A stretch of 64,000 bases of DNA, taken from contig NZ_CP024311.1 of assembly GCF_002944315.1 (NCBI RefSeq), positions 658,501-722,500 of the forward strand, written 5' to 3'. Every line of letters starts with the position of its first letter. Positions within the stretch are counted from its first letter, which is position 1. Below, piece after piece: positions 10,697-32,197 of this stretch. Origin of the DNA: Rhizobium sp. NXC24 (GTDB taxonomy: Bacteria > Pseudomonadota > Alphaproteobacteria > Rhizobiales > Rhizobiaceae). The position numbers and the translations under genes were made by a program. The notes under the pieces were generated by a model. That model saw only the letters and a list, made by a program, of their open reading frames with translations. It did no database searches and was not told the DNA's origin.

Positions 10697-12637
10697 TTAT
10701 TCTGCGGCGATCGCTGCAGCATCCTGACTTTCGACCAGGAACGGTTCGGCTCGCGCCGGCAGTGCCGGCACGTCCATATGATCCGGATCAAGGCCCTGCT
10801 TGGCGCGTGCGACCATCATTTCGTAGGCGGTTTCCACGTAACGGGTAAGGCGTTCGGCATCGAAGAGCGGCTTGATGTAGCGATTGGCCGCCAATGTCTC
10901 CTTGAGCGCGGCAATGCGCTCCGGCTGCCTGGCGAGCTCGACGGCCATGTCTTCATAGGCTTTGACATCGGCCGCCACCAGCTCCGGCACGCCGATGGCG
11001 TTGAGCAGGCTTTCGCTGACGCGCGAGGCGAAGTTCGTGCCCTTCATCGTCAACACCGGCAAACCGCCCCAGAGCTGTTCCGAGGTCGTCGTGTGGCCAT
11101 TCACCGGGAAGGTATCGAGACCGAGATCGGCCAATTGCTGGCGGTCGATGTGATCCTCATAGCGGATACGCGTGGTAAAGATGATGCGCTTGCGGCTGAT
11201 GCCGCGCGCCTCCAGACGCGTCCACAGGTTGGCCTCGGCGCGCGCGTTGCAAAGCAGCCAGAGCACGCTGTTCTTGGTGCGCTTCAGTATGTTGCACCAG
11301 ATATCGATCATGTGCGAGGTGATCTTGCGGTTGCCGTTAAACGAGGCGAAGACGAAAGCATCCTCCGGCAGGCCATGCAGCGCACGGGTCGTCGGCCGCG
11401 GCTTCGGGCGATACATCGGATCGTTCGGCTGATAGCATTCCGGCAGGCGGCAGAACTTCTCGTGGAAATGCGGCTTGGAATAATCCGGCAGAACGTAGGG
11501 ATCGCCGATAATGTAGTCGAGGTCGATGTTGACGGCGGAGCCCGGAAAGCCGAGCCATGCCGTCTGAATCGGCGCAGCCTTGTGGTTGAGGATGCGGACG
11601 CGGCTATCCTTGGTATGTCCTTTCAGATCAACCAGGATGTCGATCTGATGGGCACGGATCGCCTCTGCCGCCGCCTGATCGGAGAGGCTGCGGATATCGA
11701 CCATGGTACCCAATTTCGAATAATCGAATTCTTCCTCTTGCTGAGATGACGGCTTGGAATGGTCGAAGAGGACAATCTCGAATCGATCCTTGTCGTGCAG
11801 TTCCAACGTCCGCTGCATGAGCTTCATCGTCGCATGGCCCGGCCAGAAGTCCGATGATAGATAGCCGATGCGAATCTTGTCGCCCCATGTATGCGGCGCC
11901 TTTCGGCGCGCCTCTGCGTGCCCGGCCGGCAGCGGTACCGTGTCGTGCACTGCGAACTTGTTGATCGCTTCGTCACCGCACCAGTGCAGATGGAAGAAGG
12001 GATTGTCCGGCCTGATATAGTCGAGGTTTCCGGCAGCCGTCGCCGCCAGGATCGGCGCCATATGTTTGTCCACTGTCGCAAGATCGGACAGTTCGCGGGC
12101 GAAGATCAAATGGAGCGTGCGAAAGATGATGTTGTCTGGATGCTTCTTGAACAGGGTTGCGACGATGTGCCTGTTGCCGTCATCGTAAAGATCATCGGTC
12201 AACAGTTTTGAGGCCATCAGCCGATGCTTGAGCTCCGGCCCTTCGACGAGCACGGTCCTGAAGCCGGCCAGCAGGTCCCTTTGCTGACGGCTCAGAAAGA
12301 TGCTGGAAAGGGCAAAGGCAAGATCCGGATCCTTGAGCGCCCGATTGAGAATCAGGCTACCGATCGAAAGCGTTGCATCTTCGTTGCCGCAGGCAAAGTG
12401 CAGCAGCAGGGCTTCCCGCAGATAGTCTTCGCGATAAGGCTTCTGCCGGCCCGCCAGTTCATACGATCTCGCCGCGTCCGCTCTGAAGCCGAGTTTGAGC
12501 AGCGTCTTTGCCAGCAGGGCATAGGTCTTCGGCGATGTATCGACATTGAGCAGCCCGTTCAGTGTTTCGAGCGCGCGTGTATATTGTCCCTTTTGATAAA
12601 AGCTGGACGCTGTCCCATAGGCGTTTTTCGTATTCAC
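10697..12637 (-). CDS. TPR-containing GT41 (OGT/SPINDLY-like) glycosyltransferase
   Basis: 646 residues from a GTG at 12637, which has GGAG 9 bases upstream. An ATG at 12697 gives 666 residues but lacks a ribosome site. The N-terminus has TPR-like helices (ASSFYQKGQYTRALETLNGL, then YALLAKTLLKLGFRADAARS). The C-terminal half is the GT41 catalytic region: KIRIGYLSSDFWPGH, VDLKGHTKDSRV, IQTAWLGFPGSAVNIDLDYI and GHTTTSEQLWGGLPVLTMKG. Family members transfer GlcNAc or other sugars to Ser/Thr of proteins. It lies between fliP and the first flagellin gene, so flagellin is the obvious candidate target (inference). It diverges from flaA. Confidence 0.88.
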   Translation of the reverse strand: MNTKNAYGTASSFYQKGQYTRALETLNGLLNVDTSPKTYALLAKTLLKLGFRADAARSYELAGRQKPYREDYLREALLLHFACGNEDATLSIGSLILNRALKDPDLAFALSSIFLSRQQRDLLAGFRTVLVEGPELKHRLMASKLLTDDLYDDGNRHIVATLFKKHPDNIIFRTLHLIFARELSDLATVDKHMAPILAATAAGNLDYIRPDNPFFHLHWCGDEAINKFAVHDTVPLPAGHAEARRKAPHTWGDKIRIGYLSSDFWPGHATMKLMQRTLELHDKDRFEIVLFDHSKPSSQQEEEFDYSKLGTMVDIRSLSDQAAAEAIRAHQIDILVDLKGHTKDSRVRILNHKAAPIQTAWLGFPGSAVNIDLDYIIGDPYVLPDYSKPHFHEKFCRLPECYQPNDPMYRPKPRPTTRALHGLPEDAFVFASFNGNRKITSHMIDIWCNILKRTKNSVLWLLCNARAEANLWTRLEARGISRKRIIFTTRIRYEDHIDRQQLADLGLDTFPVNGHTTTSEQLWGGLPVLTMKGTNFASRVSESLLNAIGVPELVAADVKAYEDMAVELARQPERIAALKETLAANRYIKPLFDAERLTRYVETAYEMMVARAKQGLDPDHMDVPALPARAEPFLVESQDAAAIAAE

Positions 12638-12966
12638 GAGCGAGAACTCCGAGCGAACTTTGGACGGTCTCCGGCAAAGGCCGGAGTCCGTCATCATGGA
12701 TTCGGGGGATAATCGCGCGCGTAGCTTGCCTGAAACCGAAGCAATGGTTGAACGCCTTTACGCATCGTTAGCTACGTTGTTGTCGGATGCTTTTGCGGGT
12801 TCCGCGTTTAAGGAATTCGCAAGCAATGCATGCGAGTTTACCTGCGACATGACGGGTTTGGTCCTCTAGGAAATGGGACCGAGGAGCATGAAGCCGCTCC
12901 GTCATCGCCGGTATTTGAAGTCCGGTATGTCCTCCTTTTCGTATTCAGTTTCCAGGGGACACACTT
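12638..12966. promoter_or_regulatory. Divergent promoter region of GT41 gene and flagellin flaA, with structured leader
   Basis: This 329-bp gap has no gene. The last 70 bases form the flaA leader: a CCGG(10)CCGG element at about 12908-12925, then TGTCCTC (12928-12934) able to pair with GGGGACA (12955-12961). The second strand of that stem holds the AGGGG Shine-Dalgarno sequence 5-8 bases before the ATG. The same layout recurs before the genes at 14135 and 18225. I could not place a reliable -35/-10. Confidence 0.5.
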
Positions 12967-13878
12967 ATGACCAGCATCGTAACCAACAATTCCGCTATGG
13001 CCGCTCTGCAGACTCTGCGCGGCATCAGCAACAACCTGCAGAGCACGCAGGACGCTGTTTCTTCCGGCCTGCGCATCTCCAAGGCTTCCGATAACGCCGC
13101 CTATTGGTCGATCGCCACCACGATGAAGTCCGACGACAGCGCTATCGGCGCCGTCTCCGACGCGCTCGGCCTCGGTGCCGCCAAGGTCGACACGGCATCC
13201 ACCGCAGTCACCAGCACCCTCGACATCGTCGGCCAGATCAAGGACAAGCTCGTCACCGCCATGGAAGGTTCGGTTGACAAGGGCCAGGTCCAGGAAGAAA
13301 TCGGCCAGCTTCAGGAACAGCTCCAGAGCGTCGCTCAGTCCGCTTCGTTCAACGGCGAAAACTGGGTCATGGCTGCAAACGGCGACTCCGCTTCGGTTGT
13401 TTCGTCCTTCATCCGCGGCACCAACGGCACCGTTTCGGTCAGCACGACGTCCTACGCCTTCAACACCGGCGCAACGGGCAACGTTCTGTTCGGCGCGAAT
13501 AACGGCTCGATCGACACGTCTTCGGGTATCCTTGGTACCCAGGACTCCACGGTTGGCGCTTCGGTCTTCAGCCTGGACATCACCAACATGACCTCCGGCC
13601 AGATCTCCAGCGCCCTCAACATGGTTCAGACCGCTCTGAACTCCATGACCAGCATGGGTTCGAAGCTCGGCTCGATCTCCAGCCGTATCGACCTGCAGAC
13701 GACCTTCGCTTCGTCGCTGTCCGACTCGATCGAATCGGGCGTTGGCAAGCTGGTCGACGCCGACATGGAACAGGAATCGAGCAAGCTCTCTGCTCTGCAG
13801 ACGCAGCAGCAACTGGCTATCCAGTCGCTCTCGATCGCCAACTCCTCCACGCAGTCGATCCTGTCGCTGTTCCGTTAA
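12967..13878 (+). CDS. flaA: Flagellin A (rhizobial short flagellin)
   Basis: 303 residues, the short rhizobial flagellin type. The N-terminal D0/D1 helices (MTSIVTNNSAMAALQTLRGI ... SSGLRISKASDNAAYWSIAT) and the C-terminal D1/D0 helices (ESSKLSALQTQQQLAIQSLS) are intact, with a small variable middle rich in Ser/Thr (NGTVSVSTTSYAFNTGATGN). Those residues are possible glycosylation sites. It is over 90 percent identical to the product of the next gene, so one arose by recent duplication or conversion. Its own terminator follows at 13928. Confidence 0.95.
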   Translation: MTSIVTNNSAMAALQTLRGISNNLQSTQDAVSSGLRISKASDNAAYWSIATTMKSDDSAIGAVSDALGLGAAKVDTASTAVTSTLDIVGQIKDKLVTAMEGSVDKGQVQEEIGQLQEQLQSVAQSASFNGENWVMAANGDSASVVSSFIRGTNGTVSVSTTSYAFNTGATGNVLFGANNGSIDTSSGILGTQDSTVGASVFSLDITNMTSGQISSALNMVQTALNSMTSMGSKLGSISSRIDLQTTFASSLSDSIESGVGKLVDADMEQESSKLSALQTQQQLAIQSLSIANSSTQSILSLFR

Positions 13879-13927
13879 GAAGAAGGATTGGCGCTCGACG
13901 CCAGCCGAAATTTCTAAACACCAAGTT

Positions 13928-13958
13928 AACCGCGCCTGTCTAAGGCGCGGTTTTTTTT
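13928..13958 (+). terminator. Rho-independent terminator after flaA
   Basis: AACCGCGCC (13928-13936) pairs perfectly with GGCGCGGTT (13944-13952) around a 7-base loop and runs into TTTTTTTTAT. It is a textbook terminator that separates flaA transcription from flaB. Confidence 0.92.
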
Positions 13959-14049
13959 ATATTTTTAGACCGGGGTCGGTTCAGGTTTTCTTAACCATAT
14001 TGCTGTTTTCTAACACCATTGAAACGGCGAGTTAACCTTAACCGAATGG

Positions 14050-14134
14050 GTTAACAGGCATGATGCTGAGTGCCGTTACCGGTTTTTAGGTCCGGAATGT
14101 CCCTTATTTAACCGCTGCCAAAGGGGCAAATATT
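14050..14134 (+). promoter_or_regulatory. flaB leader with predicted Shine-Dalgarno-sequestering hairpin
   Basis: A GTTAACAGGCATGA motif (14050) is followed by CCGG-loop-CCGG, then TGTCCCTT (14098-14105), which pairs over all 8 positions (one G-U) with AAGGGGCA (14121-14128). The pairing strand contains the AAGGGG Shine-Dalgarno sequence 8 bases before the ATG. The same elements precede flaC (18142-18224) and, with changed bases, flaA. Confidence 0.6.
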
Positions 14135-15049
14135 ATGACGAGCATCCTTACCAACAACGCTGCAATGGGCGCACTGCAGACACTGCGCGGCATCAACAGC
14201 GACTTGCAGTCCACGCAGAATGCCGTTTCCTCGGGCCTGCGCATCTCCAAGGCTTCCGATAACGCCGCCTATTGGTCGATCGCCACCACGATGAAGTCTG
14301 ACGACAGCGCTATCGGCGCCGTCTCCGACGCCCTCGGCCTCGGTGCCGCCAAGGTCGACACGGCTACCACCGCAGTCACCAGCGCCCTCGACATCGTCAG
14401 CCAGATCAAGTCCAAGCTTGTAACCGCCATGGAAGGCTCGGTTGACAAGGGCCAGGTCCAGGAAGAAATCGGCCAGCTCCAGCAGCAGCTCGAGAGCGTC
14501 GCTCAGTCCGCTTCGTTCAACGGCGAAAACTGGGTCATGGCTGCAAACAACGATTCCGCCTCGGTCGTTTCGTCCTTCATCCGCGGCACGAACGGCACCG
14601 TTTCGGTCAGCACGACGTCCTACGCCTTCAACACCGGCGCAACGGGCAACGTTCTGTTCGGCACGCAGGCTAACGGCTCGATCGACACGTCTGCGGGTAT
14701 CCTTGGTACCCAGGACTCCACGGTTGGCGCTTCGGTATTCAGCCTCGACATCACCGGCATGACCGGCGGCCAGATCTCCACCGCCCTCAACATGGTTCAG
14801 ACCGCTCTGAACTCCATGACCAGCATGGGTTCGCGTCTCGGCTCGATCTCGACCCGCATCGACCTGCAGACGACCTTCGCTTCGTCGCTGTCCGACTCGA
14901 TCGAATCGGGCGTTGGCAAGCTGGTCGACGCCGACATGGAAGAAGAATCGAGCAAGCTCTCTGCTCTGCAGACGCAGCAGCAGTTGGCCGTCCAGTCGCT
15001 CTCGATTGCCAACTCCTCGTCGCAGAACATCCTGTCGCTGTTCCGTTAA
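14135..15049 (+). CDS. flaB: Flagellin B (near-identical paralogue of flaA)
   Basis: 304 residues. It starts MTSILTNNAAMGALQTLRGI and ends SIANSSSQNILSLFR. Long stretches are identical at the nucleotide level to flaA (for example the region around 13071-13135 versus 14236-14300). The middle differs by a few substitutions and one inserted residue (FGTQANGSIDT versus FGANNGSIDT). Rhizobia build a complex filament from several flagellins, one usually dominant, and I cannot say which dominates here. The letters flaA-D follow gene order only. Confidence 0.94.
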   Translation: MTSILTNNAAMGALQTLRGINSDLQSTQNAVSSGLRISKASDNAAYWSIATTMKSDDSAIGAVSDALGLGAAKVDTATTAVTSALDIVSQIKSKLVTAMEGSVDKGQVQEEIGQLQQQLESVAQSASFNGENWVMAANNDSASVVSSFIRGTNGTVSVSTTSYAFNTGATGNVLFGTQANGSIDTSAGILGTQDSTVGASVFSLDITGMTGGQISTALNMVQTALNSMTSMGSRLGSISTRIDLQTTFASSLSDSIESGVGKLVDADMEEESSKLSALQTQQQLAVQSLSIANSSSQNILSLFR

Positions 15050-15101
15050 TAGGAAGAACCGGCGCCTGGCGCGCCGGCTCAAATTCCGAAACAACAAATT
15101 C

Positions 15102-15135
15102 ACCGCGCCTTTCCAAGAGGCGCGGTTTTGTTTTT
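15102..15135. terminator. Terminator between flaB and the convergent ATP-grasp gene
   Basis: ACCGCGCCT (15102-15110) pairs with AGGCGCGGT (15118-15126) around a 7-base loop, followed by TTTGTTTTT. The sequence is almost the same as the flaA terminator, which fits duplication of the flagellin unit together with its terminator. Confidence 0.9.
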
Positions 15136-15170
15136 CAGGGTGGTATCCACTTAAAGCGCGTCGCGATCTT

Positions 15171-16421
15171 TCAGATTCCACCGGTCTTCCGGTGGCGCAC
15201 AGCATCGATGAAGCCATCAAACAACTTGCGCATGGCAACCTGCTTGTAGGGATAGATGGTGGCGCTATCCATGTTGTGGACGACCATCGCCACGTCGAGC
15301 TCGAAAACCAGCAGACGTCCGTCGGGAAGTTCGGCGCAATCGATACCGAAATAATCAAGCCCTATGTGACGATAGAGAGCTTCGAAACTCTCCTTGTGGC
15401 GGACCGCGAAATCCGTATCGAAATTCTCCATCCAAGCCTGTTCGACAGCCCGCTTCGCCGGGCTTTCCGCCATGCCGGCGCTGAGATAGTGCACGATCCA
15501 ATGCTCGGAAAGCGCCATATGGCTGGCGAAGGCCTTGCCTTCGATAAATACGATGCGCTGCTTGTTGTAGAGGCCGTCCGGCCCGCGGAAATCGATGAAA
15601 GGCGCGACGTAGAGCTCGGGAGCCGACTGCGTGGCCAGCCATGCGGACAGTCCCGAAATATCGGCGATACGTTCCATTCCATTGCCGGCATGGGTACTGA
15701 TCGGACGAACGACGAGCGGAAATGAGAGGCCCGGCGCGCATTCGTCCAGGGCTTTTGTGCCCGCACCGACTGCGACAAGGTCCTCGCGTGGAATGCGGTA
15801 CGTGCTCGGCGACAGAATGGAGGGCTCATTGGCCAGCATGCCGCTGACGCCATCGCGCGTCAGCCGGCTGATCAGTTCCGGATCGTCGTTCATGATCGGG
15901 CCGTCAAAATCGGCCAGCAGCGTCCGCATCCGTTCAAGCACGGGGGCGTTTTCGGTCGATTCGCCGATCGCCATGAACGCAACGTCGTGGTCCGGCAAAT
16001 CCGTGAGCGCGGTCGTTTCCGCGTCCACGTAATGCAGCCAAAGAACACAGTTGCTATCCGCCAGCAGAAAATCCAGCGGCGTGTTCGCCATGAAGTTGCC
16101 CGGCGTCACGAAGGCCAACAGCCGGGGCCCTTGTCCATCCCCGTGGACGACGCAAAAGTTGCGGCTGAGCTCCACCGCGCCCCGCAGGACCTGATGAGCC
16201 TCTTCGGAGCGGCCAAGCGTCTGCAGGATCGTCCCCAGGTCGAACATCGCCGCCGCGTCTTTGCCATTGGCTCCGATCCGCTGCATCAGCTCGTTCCAAA
16301 GCGGCGTCACGTCGGCGCCGGCATAGATGAGCGGCACGATCCTCTGCATGCCCAGGATTCGCCTGGCGCCTCCGATTTCGTCAGAGGCGCGAGCGGCCAC
16401 GAGGCCGGATGTCATCAGCAT
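15171..16421 (-). CDS. TPR plus ATP-grasp-like protein, partner of the adjacent decarboxylase
   Basis: 416 residues with no membrane segment. A TPR-like helical pair lies at about 57-87 (AAAMFDLGTILQTLGRSEEA). The C-terminal half resembles the ATP-grasp fold: PLVVRPISTHAGNGM (about 235-249) matches the nucleotide-binding lysine/glycine strand in general form, and DYFGIDCAELPDGRLLVFEL (about 356-375) followed by a His-Asn resembles the Mg-ATP-binding acidic strand. ATP-grasp enzymes join a carboxylate to an amine or thiol. It overlaps the decarboxylase stop by 7 bp (ATGCTGA), so the two are coupled. Function is unproven, and the fold call is moderate. Confidence 0.7.
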   Translation of the reverse strand: MLMTSGLVAARASDEIGGARRILGMQRIVPLIYAGADVTPLWNELMQRIGANGKDAAAMFDLGTILQTLGRSEEAHQVLRGAVELSRNFCVVHGDGQGPRLLAFVTPGNFMANTPLDFLLADSNCVLWLHYVDAETTALTDLPDHDVAFMAIGESTENAPVLERMRTLLADFDGPIMNDDPELISRLTRDGVSGMLANEPSILSPSTYRIPREDLVAVGAGTKALDECAPGLSFPLVVRPISTHAGNGMERIADISGLSAWLATQSAPELYVAPFIDFRGPDGLYNKQRIVFIEGKAFASHMALSEHWIVHYLSAGMAESPAKRAVEQAWMENFDTDFAVRHKESFEALYRHIGLDYFGIDCAELPDGRLLVFELDVAMVVHNMDSATIYPYKQVAMRKLFDGFIDAVRHRKTGGI

Positions 16422-17902
16422 TGGAGCAAATCCTGTCGAGAACCGAGTTTCAGAACGCCGTCAATCAGCGCGTCGATATCCATCTGCCGCGTGCGATGGT
16501 TCACGATCGCGGCGCGGATTGCCGGTTGTCCGTTAATGTGGGTGAGGGACGGGGCGACGCGCCCCTCGGCGTGGAGATGTTCGATGATCCGGGCATTGAC
16601 TTGCGGCGGCGCGTCACCGTCGGGGCCGACATAGGCAAAGCAAACGATATTGAGCGCAACCGGCGCCAAGAGCCGCAAGGCGGGTTCCTGTTCGATCCGG
16701 CGTGCGAGACCGCGTGCCAGGACACAGTTGGCAGCCATCGAATCCCCCAAAGCCTTGACGCCATAGGTCTTGAGGGTGAACCAGGTTTTGAGCGCGCGGA
16801 AGCCGCGTGACAGGTCCGGGCCGTAGTCGCAAGGCCACCAGTCACCGCCGGCCAGACCCGAGGCGGCACGGCTGAGATAGGCGGCTTCCGAAGCAAACGT
16901 CTGGCGCTGCCATGTGCTGTCGCGCACGAGGAGGAAGCCTGCATCGTATGGCACCTGGCCCCATTTGTGGAAATCGAAGGCCAGCGAATCGCAGGTTTCG
17001 ATGCCGGCGAACAAATGCGCCAGATCATCGCAAAGGATACCCAGCGCCCCCAACGCACCGTCGACGTGAAAATGCAGGTCGTGGGCGTCGGCGATACCGC
17101 GCAAAGTGATGAGGTCGTCGATCGCTCCGGTATTTACCGTCCCTGCGCTTCCGATGATGAGGAACGGCGTGTGTCCCGCCTCCTTGTCGCGCATGATGGC
17201 ACGTTCGAGGGCCGCAATATCGATCTGCCCGGCCGCGTTGACCGGGATTCGCCGGAGCTGATCGCTGCCGACACCCGACATCTCGAATGCGCGCGGCACG
17301 CAACCATGCACTTCGCTCGATGCGTAGCCCACGAGCCGCGGCTCGTTCGATAGACCCTCAGCGCGGGCATTTGCACCGAGCTTTCTACTGCGCGCGAGCA
17401 GGAGGGCGACAAAATTGGCCTGCGAGGCGCCGGTCAGGAACAGGCCGCCAGCGGTATCCGGAAATGAGAATATTTGCCGTGTCCACCGGATGATCTGACG
17501 CTCGACCTCGATCGGCATGTGGTCGCGCCCGCCGAGATTGGCGTTCAGACCGCCGGCCAGCATCTCCGCCAACATGCCGGCGACTGTTCCGCCGCCCTGC
17601 ACCCAGCCCATAAATCCTGAATGGATATTGCCGCTGCCATAGGGAAGAACATTGTCGCGGAACATGGCATGGACATCCGCCAGATCCGTCGGTTCGACCG
17701 GTAGAGGCGCGTCAAACAGGGCGCGCGCAGGCGACGGTGCTGGTTGCCAGACGGGCTTTTCGGAGAGCCTTTCCAAATGGTCGAGCATATCGTCCAGCAT
17801 CTGGTGACCCTGCTTGCGCAGGCTTTGCCAGTCGTCGGGGTCGAGGCTTGTCCGTTGCCGCGGTCCATCCCACGGTGATCCGCCGTCTTGTAAACTTAAC
17901 AT
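16415..17902 (-). CDS. Pyridoxal-phosphate-dependent decarboxylase (group II, AADC-like)
   Basis: 495 residues, the usual size for aromatic/glutamate-type group II decarboxylases. The PLP lysine is K313 in DFHKWGQVPYD, with H312 before it. The PLP-stacking histidine is H199 in SSEVHG, and the cofactor aspartate is D281 in HVDGALG. The N-terminal GNIHSGFMGWVQGGGTVAGM is also typical. It would convert an amino acid to an amine and CO2. The substrate cannot be read from sequence. It sits alone with the ATP-grasp gene between flagellin genes and runs against them, so an amine made here could be joined by the partner (inference). Confidence 0.88.
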   Translation of the reverse strand: MLSLQDGGSPWDGPRQRTSLDPDDWQSLRKQGHQMLDDMLDHLERLSEKPVWQPAPSPARALFDAPLPVEPTDLADVHAMFRDNVLPYGSGNIHSGFMGWVQGGGTVAGMLAEMLAGGLNANLGGRDHMPIEVERQIIRWTRQIFSFPDTAGGLFLTGASQANFVALLLARSRKLGANARAEGLSNEPRLVGYASSEVHGCVPRAFEMSGVGSDQLRRIPVNAAGQIDIAALERAIMRDKEAGHTPFLIIGSAGTVNTGAIDDLITLRGIADAHDLHFHVDGALGALGILCDDLAHLFAGIETCDSLAFDFHKWGQVPYDAGFLLVRDSTWQRQTFASEAAYLSRAASGLAGGDWWPCDYGPDLSRGFRALKTWFTLKTYGVKALGDSMAANCVLARGLARRIEQEPALRLLAPVALNIVCFAYVGPDGDAPPQVNARIIEHLHAEGRVAPSLTHINGQPAIRAAIVNHRTRQMDIDALIDGVLKLGSRQDLLQC

Positions 17903-18224
17903 GTCGACCCCGCATGGGCTGATATACCGACGTTGTAACCACGCCGTTTCCGGCCGGACAGTCGCCCGATCATGACAATCTTATGCCGCCCAAGGTGGCG
18001 CGAAGCTGACCTGACGCGCCGATGGCCTCCTGCAGGAAATATGATTTTGTTAACTTTCCGGTTTTGTTGTTAACCTTTTATTAAGCCTGGTAGTGTCATC
18101 TGCGGCTAACGCAACGGTTGGTTAACGTCTCTTAAGAGCCAGTTAACAGGCATGACGCTGATTGCCGTTCCCGGCCGAAGACCGGAATGTCCCTTCCAAT
18201 TTCAGCCACAAGGGGCACCTCTCC
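17903..18224. promoter_or_regulatory. Divergent promoter region of decarboxylase operon and flaC, with structured leader
   Basis: This 322-bp gap has no gene. Its right half is AT-rich with four GTTAAC hexamers (18049, 18069, 18121, 18142). It also has TTAAGAGCCAGTTAA at 18132-18146, which fits the CtrA box TTAA-N7-TTAA. The flaC leader follows: CCGG elements, then TGTCCCTT (18188-18195) complementary to AAGGGGCA (18210-18217), which holds the Shine-Dalgarno sequence. Confidence 0.5.
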
Positions 18225-19145
18225 ATGACCAGCATTTTGACCAACGATGCAGCAATGTCTGCTCTCCAGACTTTGCGCTCGATCAACAATAATTTGGAAG
18301 ACACCCAAAACCGGGTCTCTTCCGGCTATCGTGTCGCCAAGGCCTCCGACAACGCCGCCTATTGGTCGATCGCGACCACCATGCGTTCCGACAACAGCGC
18401 GCTTTCGGCCGTCTCCGACGCTCTGGGCCTCGGTGCCGCCAAGGTCGACACCGCCTATACGGCAATGGACAATTCCATCAATGTCGTCGAGCAGATCAAG
18501 GACAAGCTTGTCGCGGCCACGGAAAACAGCGTCGACAAGGCGGATGTTCAGGAAGAAGTTTCGCAGCTTCAGCAGCAGCTTGAGAGCATTGCGCAGTCCG
18601 CTTCGTTCTCTGGGCAGAACTGGATGATCGGAGCCAACGGCGCCTCCGCATCGGTCGTGTCCTCCTTTGTCCGCAACAATGACGGCACGGTCGAGGTCAA
18701 CAGCACCAGCTATAGCTTCGATACGGGATCGCAGGGCAACGTGATGTTCGGCGCCAATGCCGATGGTACGATCGACACGAGCTCCGGTATCCTTGGCACC
18801 ACGCAGAATATCAACGGCACCGCCTATTCCGTCTTCAGTCTCGACATTACCGGCATGACGAGCGGCGGCATCGGCCAGGCGATGAACCTAGTGCAGTCGG
18901 CTCTCAACGCGATGACGAGCACCGCTTCGCAGCTCGGCTCGCTGTCGACCCGCATCGACCTTCAGACAAGCTTCGTTTCAACGCTGAGCGACACGATCGA
19001 CTCCGGCGTCGGCAAGCTGGTCGATGCGAATATGGAAGAGGAATCGAGCAAGCTCTCGGCGCTTCAGACGCAGCAACAATTGGCGATCCAGTCGCTGCAG
19101 ATCGCCAACAACAGCGCGCAGAACGTTCTGGCGCTCTTCAAGTGA
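18225..19145 (+). CDS. flaC: Flagellin C
   Basis: 306 residues from ATG 18225 (MTSILTNDAAMSALQTLRSI), preceded by AAGGGG. An in-frame ATG at 18162 lies in the structured leader and is rejected. The conserved N- and C-terminal helices match flaA/flaB, but the variable middle (NNDGTVEVNSTSYSFDTGSQ) and many surface positions differ. It is an older paralogue. Codon usage is less biased than in flaA and flaB, which suggests lower expression. Confidence 0.93.
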   Translation: MTSILTNDAAMSALQTLRSINNNLEDTQNRVSSGYRVAKASDNAAYWSIATTMRSDNSALSAVSDALGLGAAKVDTAYTAMDNSINVVEQIKDKLVAATENSVDKADVQEEVSQLQQQLESIAQSASFSGQNWMIGANGASASVVSSFVRNNDGTVEVNSTSYSFDTGSQGNVMFGANADGTIDTSSGILGTTQNINGTAYSVFSLDITGMTSGGIGQAMNLVQSALNAMTSTASQLGSLSTRIDLQTSFVSTLSDTIDSGVGKLVDANMEEESSKLSALQTQQQLAIQSLQIANNSAQNVLALFK

Positions 19146-19172
19146 GCCTTGACCGGAGCTTACGTTAGGAAA

Positions 19173-19215
19173 GCGCGGCGGCATTTCTTTCTTGCCGCCG
19201 CGCATAAGCTTTTGT
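19173..19215 (+). terminator. Hairpin terminator after flaC
   Basis: GCGCGGCGGCA (19173-19183) pairs with TGCCGCCGCGC (19193-19203), an 11-bp stem, followed by ATAAGCTTTTGTT. The T-run is weak, but the stem is very strong and lies 28 bases past the stop codon. Confidence 0.75.
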
Positions 19216-19407
19216 TAACGTTCCGGGGTAACTGATTTGCAGTATCTGCGCAGAGCCCCGGTGTTCGATCAATTTCGTCGGAACCGATTTGAGGGCTTGA
19301 TCTAGCGACGAGCCGCGTTGGGATCATTCCCGCTGGCGGGCATGAGGCCGTTCGTTGCTGCCGGACCCGTCCGGCCTGCCGTTTCCAATAGAATTACGGA
19401 TCTCCCG

Positions 19408-20382
19408 ATGAGCAGTGTAACGACGAACCCCGCCTCTTTGGCCGCGCTGACGGTATTGCGCGGCGTCAACAAAGATCTTGGTGTCGTGCAACAACAGGTT
19501 TCATCCGGCCTGCGCGTCGAGAACGCGGGTGACGATCCGACCTATTGGTCGATGTCGAAGACGATGCAGTCGGACCAGAGCAGTCTTTCCACCATTACCG
19601 ACGCGCTCGGCCTCGGGGCCTCGAAGGTCGATACCGCCTCCACCGCCATGGATTCGGTCGTCGATCTCGTGACCCAGATCCAGGCCAAACTGGTTTCGGC
19701 CAAGGAGCCAGGCACCGACAAGAGCGCGGTCAATGCGGATATTGAGCAGCTCAAGAACCAACTGCAGTCGGTCACGCAATCCGCGTCCTTTTCCGGTGAG
19801 AACTGGCTCTACAACACCGATGCGCAGCCCGATACCGAGCAATCCGTCATCAGCAATTTTACGCGTGGCACGAGCGGTCAAGTCAATCTGGTGACGATCG
19901 ATTACGATAGTTCGCAGACCCTGATGATCGACACGGCCGATGCCAGCCGCGGACTGCTGACGAAGAATATCGATGCCAGCACGTTCGACAGCAGTGGAAC
20001 GTCGACGGAGCGTAACTATTATCTCCTGGCTGCGGATTCCGGTACGCCGCCTGACGACGGCACCGAAATTTCCATTTCCGACAGCACGACGGACGATGAA
20101 ATCACTGACATGATCAATGTGACGAACTCGATCCTGAAGTCGGTTACTTCAGCCGATTCGACGCTGGGCGTGATGAAATCGCGTATCGACGATCAGACTG
20201 ATTACATTTCCAACCTCAGCGATGCCGTCAAGACCAGCGTCGGTAACCTTGTCGATACCAACATGGAAGAGGCATCGGCGCGCCAAAGCGCGCTGCAGAC
20301 GGCGCAGCAGATGGGCATTCAGGCGCTGTCCATCGCCAACACCATGGCGAGCAAGGTGTTGATCCTGTTGCAGGCAAAGTGA
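19408..20382 (+). CDS. flaD: Flagellin D, divergent and longer
   Basis: 324 residues from ATG 19408 (MSSVTTNPASLAALTVLRGV). The in-frame starts at 19318 and 19339 lie in the leader. The D0/D1 helices are flagellin-like (SSGLRVENAGDDPTYWSMSK; C-terminal EEASARQSALQTAQQMGIQA). The middle is longer and more acidic (EISISDSTTDDEITDMINVT) and unlike the other three. The leader keeps a perfect GCCGGAC-CC-GTCCGGC hairpin (about 19361-19376) but has no clear Shine-Dalgarno sequence. It is probably a minor filament component. Confidence 0.9.
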   Translation: MSSVTTNPASLAALTVLRGVNKDLGVVQQQVSSGLRVENAGDDPTYWSMSKTMQSDQSSLSTITDALGLGASKVDTASTAMDSVVDLVTQIQAKLVSAKEPGTDKSAVNADIEQLKNQLQSVTQSASFSGENWLYNTDAQPDTEQSVISNFTRGTSGQVNLVTIDYDSSQTLMIDTADASRGLLTKNIDASTFDSSGTSTERNYYLLAADSGTPPDDGTEISISDSTTDDEITDMINVTNSILKSVTSADSTLGVMKSRIDDQTDYISNLSDAVKTSVGNLVDTNMEEASARQSALQTAQQMGIQALSIANTMASKVLILLQAK

Positions 20383-31403: not shown

Positions 31404-31751
31404 ATGTATCAGTTCTCATATGCGGAAGTCATGCAGGATGCAGTGGCCGACGCCAAGGAGCGAGAACGTCAAGTTCTGGACCGGTCGGTAGCTCTTCTCT
31501 CTGCGGCCCGTGACAAGGGGAAGTACGGCCGCGAAGCGATCGAGGCACTGTTCTACACAAGACGTGTCTGGATCAGCTTTATCGAGGATCTAAAAAGTCC
31601 GGAGAACCAGCTTAACGTCGAACTGCGCGCCAATCTTATCTCCATCGCAATCTGGATTTTGAAGGAATGCGACCGGATCCGTAGGCGCCAGTCGGAAAAT
31701 TATCAAGGCATCATCGATGTCACCACCATCATCAGGGATGGACTTAAATGA
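31404..31751 (+). CDS. flaF: Flagellin synthesis regulator FlaF
   Basis: 115 residues, fully helical and without a signal. It begins [20 protein letters not shown] and contains [20 protein letters not shown] and [20 protein letters not shown], the FlaF family pattern. In Caulobacter FlaF is needed for flagellin synthesis or secretion and opposes FlbT. The flbT start overlaps its stop by 4 bp, keeping the pair at fixed ratio. Confidence 0.92.
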
Positions 31752-32197
31752 AAAGTACGCTTCGCATATCGCTTAAAGCCGGGGAAAGAATTTTTATCAA
31801 CGGGGCCGTGCTGCGTGTTGACCGCAAGGTCGCCCTGGAATTCCTGAATGATGTGACCTTCTTGCTCGAGAACCACGTTCTCCAGCCGGAAGATGCGACG
31901 ACACCGCTGCGCCAGCTCTATTTCATCGCGCAGATGATCCTCATCAATCCGGAAGGCAAGGAACAATCGACGGCGATGTTCCGCAAGTCGATCGTGATGC
32001 TGCTCTCCTGCTTCCGCAATGAGGAAGTGCTGGCCGAGCTGAAGCGGATCGATGGGCTCGTGGCCACCGGCCGTGCCTTCGACGCGCTCAAGGCGATCCG
32101 CGGGCTTTACCCGGTCGAAGACAACATTCTTCACAACCAGGAAATGCCGGCCGCGACGATCGAGCATATTCGCCGGGAGATCGCGCCGTGGCGGTAG
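31748..32197 (+). CDS. flbT: Flagellin mRNA regulator FlbT
   Basis: 149 residues: a beta-rich start ([20 protein letters not shown]) and a helical remainder ([40 protein letters not shown]). In Caulobacter FlbT associates with the flagellin mRNA leader and lowers its stability before the hook is complete. The flagellin leaders in this window have a shared hairpin that would be a natural target (inference). flgD starts 10 bp before its stop. Confidence 0.93.

Follow-up and report, generated by a model that had tools for sequence, protein, structure and literature searches.

The flagellin genes flaA, flaB and flaC of Rhizobium sp. NXC24 each carry, just 5' of the start codon, a conserved leader of two adjoining hairpins, P1 and then P2, the second being a stem that covers the Shine-Dalgarno sequence (SD). 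All three lie in the window, the whole 64,000-nucleotide (nt) stretch of DNA analysed here (contig NZ_CP024311.1, positions 658,501 to 722,500). The leader is real, conserved in many relatives and absent from Rfam 15, and we regard it as a newly found conserved RNA of a known kind, the structured cis-regulatory leader, with a probable part in timing the synthesis of the flagellar filament protein. No description of it was found in the literature searched, a body of sources from which subscription journals were mostly beyond reach. An initial annotation, made by eye, had proposed an SD-burying stem before the three genes, a CCGG/CCGG element just upstream of it and the FlbT encoded at 31748 as its possible regulator. 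All quoted stem arms, CCGG elements and loops (20, 15 and 14 bases) lie where it placed them (Table 1), and the three genes are indeed flagellins with FlaF and FlbT downstream, the latter confirmed by PF07378.

By reading, the leaders follow a common order: GGCATGANGC, CCGG-loop-CCGG, ATGTCC, a variable loop and GGG(A/G)CA just 5' of the start codon. P1 extends beyond its CCGG pair, with a 5' arm YRU-N-CCGG and a 3' arm CCGG-N-AUG, commonly with one bulged base. The final two bases of this AUG are the initial two of the P2 left arm (the UG of AUGUCC), so that full-length P1 and P2 would compete. The AUG of AUGUCC (12927-12929, 14097-14099, 18187-18189) could also start short upstream reading frames, Met-Ser-Leu-Ile-stop in flaB; by inspection, no SD was noticed 5' of the AUGs at 12927, 14097 and 18187.

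The window together with 113 loci supplied 292 flagellin starts, a total that includes the genes of the window more than once; these gave 274 distinct 110-nt leaders, 188 of them with ATGTCC. A covariance model, R1, was built on an alignment (A1) of 41 diverse leaders from the host's family, flaA, flaB and flaC among them; these were 41 of 49 retained leaders, and two of the eight dropped duplicated the window's own. Because ATGTCC was required for entry, left-arm invariance in A1 arises partly by selection. RNAalifold gives P2 on this alignment unprompted. Within the window, R1 matches flaA (12894-12969, 52.7 bits), flaB (14065-14137, 62.2 bits) and flaC (18157-18226, 56.5 bits) alone, all in the training set, with E-values (E) of 1e-14 to 1e-17 and the next match at E 0.5; in the 7.3-Mb genome these training members are again the only significant hits (next E 0.054). 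Across 76 named loci R1 gave 177 matches (E<=1), of which the best 150 without exception coincide with flagellin starts (146 established by script, one at a flagellin with masked bases and three at flagellins listed without an ATG). In 30 family loci, 53 of 69 matches (E<=1) fall at listed flagellin starts; the remaining 16 comprise five strong matches at the ends of loci, too near the edge for a complete gene to be listed, the others being weak (E >0.009).

R1, trained within the family alone, was then run blind on 150 order genomes. Seventeen loci from beyond the family scored E<1e-3, and a flagellin lies directly downstream in 16 of them, representing 16 genomes and eight families, with three sharing one identical leader; at the remaining locus (L161) no flagellin was detected after the match. 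Between E 0.002 and 0.0055, a flagellin followed the match at one of 11 loci (L170), so matches this weak are mostly chance. R1 gave no significant match (best E 0.092) when applied to 29 flagellin loci of the class that belong to other orders. The same structure therefore stands before the same gene in diverged relatives, though patchily outside the family. Small, structured, SD-containing cis-regulatory leaders are also found in Rfam, yet no family of Rfam 15 matches the 64-kb window at its gathering score. Five below-threshold matches in 12850-19450 all fall at the flaA and flaB terminators; the ends of these genes (13888-13960 and 15056-15134) carry similar GC-rich hairpins with T runs, apparent terminators, which account for the sole weak Rfam scores in this neighbourhood.

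For the analysis of covariation, leaders were picked by flagellin start and a GCATGA-like anchor, not by ATGTCC. Thinning at 88% identity cut the rows from 259 to 132, and 12 of 15 further leaders tried were added, giving 144; base changes were mapped onto a coding-sequence tree, with six slid registers as the null. P1 is paired in 642 of 719 cells, and on 17 branches both sides changed while the pair was kept, versus 0-3 in the slid registers. Twelve of these 17 compensatory changes fall at the N-N pair, where 18 shared branches stand against 10.7 expected (6/2000). Judged by these sequence changes, the CCGG element is the better-proven hairpin of the two. In one leader (L186, near a start at 1491 on the minus strand) the P1 core reads UCGG/CCGA, a clean compensatory pair with both sides altered; its left arm is rearranged and still able to cover the SD.

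For P2, 798 of 940 cells are paired, versus 338-515 when slid. One pair, U-A versus C-G, changes on 10 shared branches against 3.6 expected (2/2000), and own arms pair more stably than swapped ones (-8.26 versus -7.60 kcal/mol; 0/1000), a comparison in which swapping leaves kinship uncorrected. Classed by simple word patterns, 95 of the 144 leaders have both P2 arms, 29 neither, 12 the left alone and eight the right alone (Fisher p 6e-14). On the tree, which controls for relatedness, the two arms were gained or lost on the same branch seven times against a null mean of 2.0 (5/5000 as many). P2 is conserved mostly by invariance, its arms being lost together. The covariation foreseen in the initial annotation is strong for P1; for P2 the outcome is near-neutral since the arms barely vary, with support from joint loss, own arms and one covarying pair, and none from kept double changes, as set out below.

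Folding the three leaders places P2, with the SD inside it, in the minimum-energy structure of all three, at both 48-50 and 71-76 nt, as had been proposed. The shorter folds of flaA, flaB and flaC reach -10.4, -9.6 and -10.9 kcal/mol (z -0.50, -0.54 and -0.35), and the longer ones have z of 0.13, 0.18 and 0.42. We compared the SD-upstream duplex with that of 485 SD-bearing control genes from the named loci, with starts picked for the best SD: a duplex of -10 kcal/mol or better occurs in 77.5% of 240 flagellin leaders, versus 40.0% of the controls. The median probability that the SD pairs upstream is 0.71 in 106 non-FlaD leaders. Energy alone is not above chance, because z is near 0 and equally strong duplexes are common among the controls; to judge from the aligned leaders, the excess over chance lies in an identical layout at an identical place across many relatives.

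The candidate regulator co-occurs with the leader: FlbT is encoded in 102 of 121 family genomes, including all 101 with a FlaB relative, so that its presence alone cannot discriminate. A tree of 40 chosen FlbT proteins from 36 genomes is more informative, splitting into two deep clades (support 1.0 for B and 0.77 for A). All 20 motif-positive tips, from motif-bearing genomes or clusters, belong to clade A, two of them (G352, E 0.0055; G409, E 0.0046) resting on weak matches that abut a flagellin, and all 13 tips that are motif-negative by R1 belong to clade B. Clade A holds seven further tips, three with leaders left unexamined and four with variant leaders. Four genomes (G343, G424, G448 and G454) hold both FlbT types, and in these the clade-A gene has the motif 12-14 kb away, and the clade-B flbT is distant from it or on a different contig. 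Three of the four also carry flagellins starting with MPVISTN (L176, L178, L183) that have an open AGGAG and no motif, flagellins that may or may not belong to the clade-B system. The FlbT loci that bear on the clade split are 31748-32197, L207, L212, L219, L221 and L230-L238.

On balance, and with modest confidence, we favour a reading in which the flaA, flaB and flaC mRNAs share one conserved cis-regulatory leader whose SD-burying P2 is opened by a factor, most likely clade-A FlbT. P1 (YRU-N-CCGG/CCGG-N-AUG) would lie near the probable 5' end with P2 directly after it, the two competing for the UG of AUGUCC. By default P2, its left arm UGUCC(C) paired with GGG(A/G)CA, would bury the SD and restrain translation. 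Clade-A FlbT is the likeliest candidate for a factor coupled to assembly of the flagellum that, perhaps together with flagellin or FlaF, would bind the P1/P2 junction and open P2, confining large-scale synthesis of filament protein to the proper stage.

Several observations weigh against this reading, and we consider them along with the alternatives they would favour. The part of it that concerns P1 depends on where transcripts begin, and no mapped transcription start for these leaders was found in the literature examined, which was available in part. Conservation in the region is highest at GCATGA (1.9-2.0 bits in non-FlaD leaders, partly by selection, GCATGA having served as the anchor) and at the GC two bases further on (+7/+8 after GCATGA, outside the anchor; 1.7-1.8 bits); GCATGA or GCATCA is absent from 11 of 274 family leaders. 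Counted to the 5' CCGG of the P1 core, the spacing from GCATGA is 21-22 nt in 158 of the 170 leaders measured in the family and in 20 of 21 from the order, and the P1 loop ranges from 3 to 19 nt. The GCATGA core of GGCATGANGC is likely a promoter or regulator site, and the fixed spacing, the variable loop and the top conservation suggest a core promoter element, with P1 at the extreme 5' end of the mRNA. The fixed spacing would equally suit a P1 that is a DNA palindrome, a regulator site overlapping the promoter, leaving P2 alone in the transcript, and CtrA binds flagellin promoters in S. meliloti according to the available part of one source (PMC4433202). We consider this rather doubtful, since 3 to 19 nt between the CCGG copies is unlike a dimer site and some P1 pairs are mostly G-U wobbles (A1 columns 12-45: GT in 29 of 41), which would be meaningless in DNA.

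The burial of the SD by P2 meets further objections. Kept double changes in P2 number 11 versus 4-14 in slid registers, no excess, and in leaders without TGTCC own arms are no better than swapped ones (575/1000; 318/1000 excluding FlaD-like leaders), a result that speaks against any general compensation in that subset. Dinucleotide-shuffled sequences reach folds about as stable as those of the real leaders, and 29.9%, 17.7% and 20.4% of the controls have an SD-upstream duplex that equals or exceeds in strength that of flaA, flaB and flaC, respectively. When folding starts further upstream, flaA and flaB keep P2, which in the minimum-energy structure of flaC gives way to another fold. FlaD-like leaders, many without the motif, also show a fairly high SD pairing (median 0.59). 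Outside the family, the motif is verified in 16 of 106 flagellin-bearing genomes, possibly an undercount as the search filters may lose weak matches. Three leaders of one genus of the same family (g73; L197, L198 and L200) have P1 and lack P2; their P1 is perfect (CAUACCGG/CCGGUAUG), and its 5' arm UACC could alternatively pair with GGUA at the SD. The association of the motif with clade A, read from sequence, may reflect a specific FlbT-leader pair and fits plain co-inheritance of a flagellar system equally well.

Taken with the near-invariant left arm, the ordinary energies and missing compensation would suit a second alternative, that UGUCCC and GGG(A/G)CA are independently conserved single-stranded sites, a protein motif and the SD, complementary by coincidence and forming no acting hairpin. 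We judge this unlikely. The CA after GGGG or GGGA is conserved though not SD-like, the two arms are lost jointly, own arms beat swapped ones over all leaders, and some rearranged left arms still pair, such as TGCCCTT/AGGGGCA in L035, L059 and L089. Hairpins at the 5' end commonly protect mRNAs, and P1 without P2 occurs in the fourth flagellin of the window and in one genus. That the hairpins chiefly govern how long a highly abundant mRNA survives, with SD pairing a minor by-product, is nonetheless improbable, even though FlbT binding is said in a review to promote flagellin mRNA decay in Caulobacter (PMC4347634, available in part), because it leaves the conservation and joint loss of the P2 arms unexplained.

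The preferred reading, an SD-burying P2 opened by a factor, has precedents that differ in sign. An action of FlbT on a flagellin leader was reported in 2000 (Anderson and Gober, via reviews), and opposite signs have been described in two genera since; the following rests on the available parts of the sources cited. Caulobacter compares with the present case in that FlbT is reported there to act on a flagellin 5' leader in an alphaproteobacterium, with FlaF beside FlbT. It differs in that FlbT is reported to repress flagellin translation there (PMC3930126, PMC7591256, PMC4347634), with FljJ as partner (PMC7591256, PMC3930126), or to promote mRNA decay on binding, according to a review (PMC4347634); the Caulobacter leader is known here by review description only. 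In Brucella, FlbT is described as a flagellin activator (PMC4347634, PMC8781033, PMC9812332), required for flagellin and suggested to work through the fliC 5' leader (Ferooz 2011, via PMC4347634 and PMC8781033); the review passages describe no leader structure, unlike P1 and P2 here. A motility-gene screen in Agrobacterium fabrum picked up rem, flbT and flaF (PMC9812332). By analogy, the Caulobacter comparison on which the initial annotation drew may have the wrong sign here, reviews suggesting an activating FlbT in this group. The window's host is related to both Agrobacterium and Brucella, so FlbT would be expected to open P2. A review lists the mode of action of FlbT as unresolved (PMC4347634), and the present leader, an RNA element specified down to predicted base pairs, which occurs in several families and is linked to one of two FlbT clades, opens the question to direct test.

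A further likeness is offered by CsrA and FliW acting on Bacillus hag and Campylobacter flaA, where again a flagellin leader is the target of an RNA-binding protein, itself opposed by a protein antagonist; the same source, in its available part, calls FlaF and FlbT possibly analogous to this pair (PMC4894983). In profile comparisons, the N-termini of clade-B FlbT resemble CsrA, whereas an FlbT profile made up mainly of clade A gives no outstanding score against CsrA; the helical part of a clade-A FlbT structure model resembles FliS. In many leaders, moreover, the bases just 5' of the SD can pair locally with the P2 right arm, suggestive of a third pairing (P3) that would place the SD in a loop. 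Over 95 leaders, own P3 stems average 2.96 base pairs (bp) versus 2.55 when swapped and 2.37 when shuffled (both 0/1000), and stems of at least 3 bp occur in 42 of 47 GGGGC and 22 of 48 GGGAC leaders; since kinship is uncontrolled in this test, P3 is only a lead. Speculatively, and with little confidence, the leader might have three mutually exclusive states, a long P1, P2 with the SD buried and P3 with the SD in a small loop, among which clade-A FlbT would choose by reading cytoplasmic flagellin, FlbT being a CsrA-derived beta domain joined to a helical domain that is FliS-like and binds flagellin. A single fused protein would in that case let flagellin adjust its own translation, a job split elsewhere between CsrA and FliW.

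Table 1 Coordinates of the flagellin leaders and associated genes in the window.
Feature	Position	Strand	Sequence	Remarks
flaA GCATGA element	12886..12891	+	GCATGA	
flaB GCATGA element	14058..14063	+	GCATGA	
flaC GCATGA element	18150..18155	+	GCATGA	
flaA P1	12903..12929	+	CAU-(C)-G-CCGG / CCGG-U-AUG	R1 match, covariation; CCGG/CCGG core 12908-12911/12922-12925
flaB P1	14074..14099	+	CGU-U-(A)-CCGG / CCGG-A-AUG	R1 match; core 14079-14082/14092-14095
flaC P1	18166..18189	+	CGU-U-(C)-CCGG / CCGG-A-AUG	R1 match; core 18171-18174/18182-18185
flaA P2	12928-12934 / 12955-12961	+	TGTCCTC / GGGGACA	Loop 20; SD within right arm
flaB P2	14098-14105 / 14121-14128 (14098..14128)	+	TGTCCCTT / AAGGGGCA; in RNA letters UGUCCCUU / AAGGGGCA	Loop 15
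flaC P2	18188-18195 / 18210-18217	+	UGUCCCUU / AAGGGGCA	Loop 14; pair identical to that of flaB
flaA candidate P3	12948..12960	+	GUUUC-CAG-GGGAC	Suggestive; excludes P2
flaB candidate P3	14116..14128	+	UGCC-AAAGG-GGCA	Suggestive; SD in loop, excludes P2
flaC candidate P3	18205..18216	+	GCC-ACAAGG-GGC	Suggestive; from near relative and reading
flaA flagellin	12967..13878	+		PF00669, PF00700
flaB flagellin	14135..15049	+		Domain search
flaC flagellin	18225..19145	+		Domain search; start codon at 18225
Fourth flagellin	19318-20382			ATG 19408; leader keeps GGCATGAGGC
Fourth flagellin P1-like GC-rich hairpin	19360..19375	+	GCCGGA-CCCG-UCCGGC	Also in relatives
FlaF	31404..31751	+		PF07309
FlbT, clade A	31748..32197	+		Candidate trans-acting factor; PF07378 1.8e-42; clade tree; structure model

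The fourth flagellin has no P2 in its leader, and the flagellin paralogues may for this reason be under different translational control. Divergent to flaA, a minus-strand gene (10697-12697) encodes a GT41 glycosyltransferase (PF13844, 8e-73) like the flagellin glycosyltransferase FlmG, the subject of a source available in part (PMC7591256); its tetratricopeptide-repeat (TPR)-like part is indicated only by a below-cut-off ANAPC3 match. Between flaB and flaC stand two opposite-strand genes (15171-17902, minus strand), one of them weakly matching TPR, below the cut-off, and the other resembling, by eye, a pyridoxal phosphate (PLP)-dependent decarboxylase.

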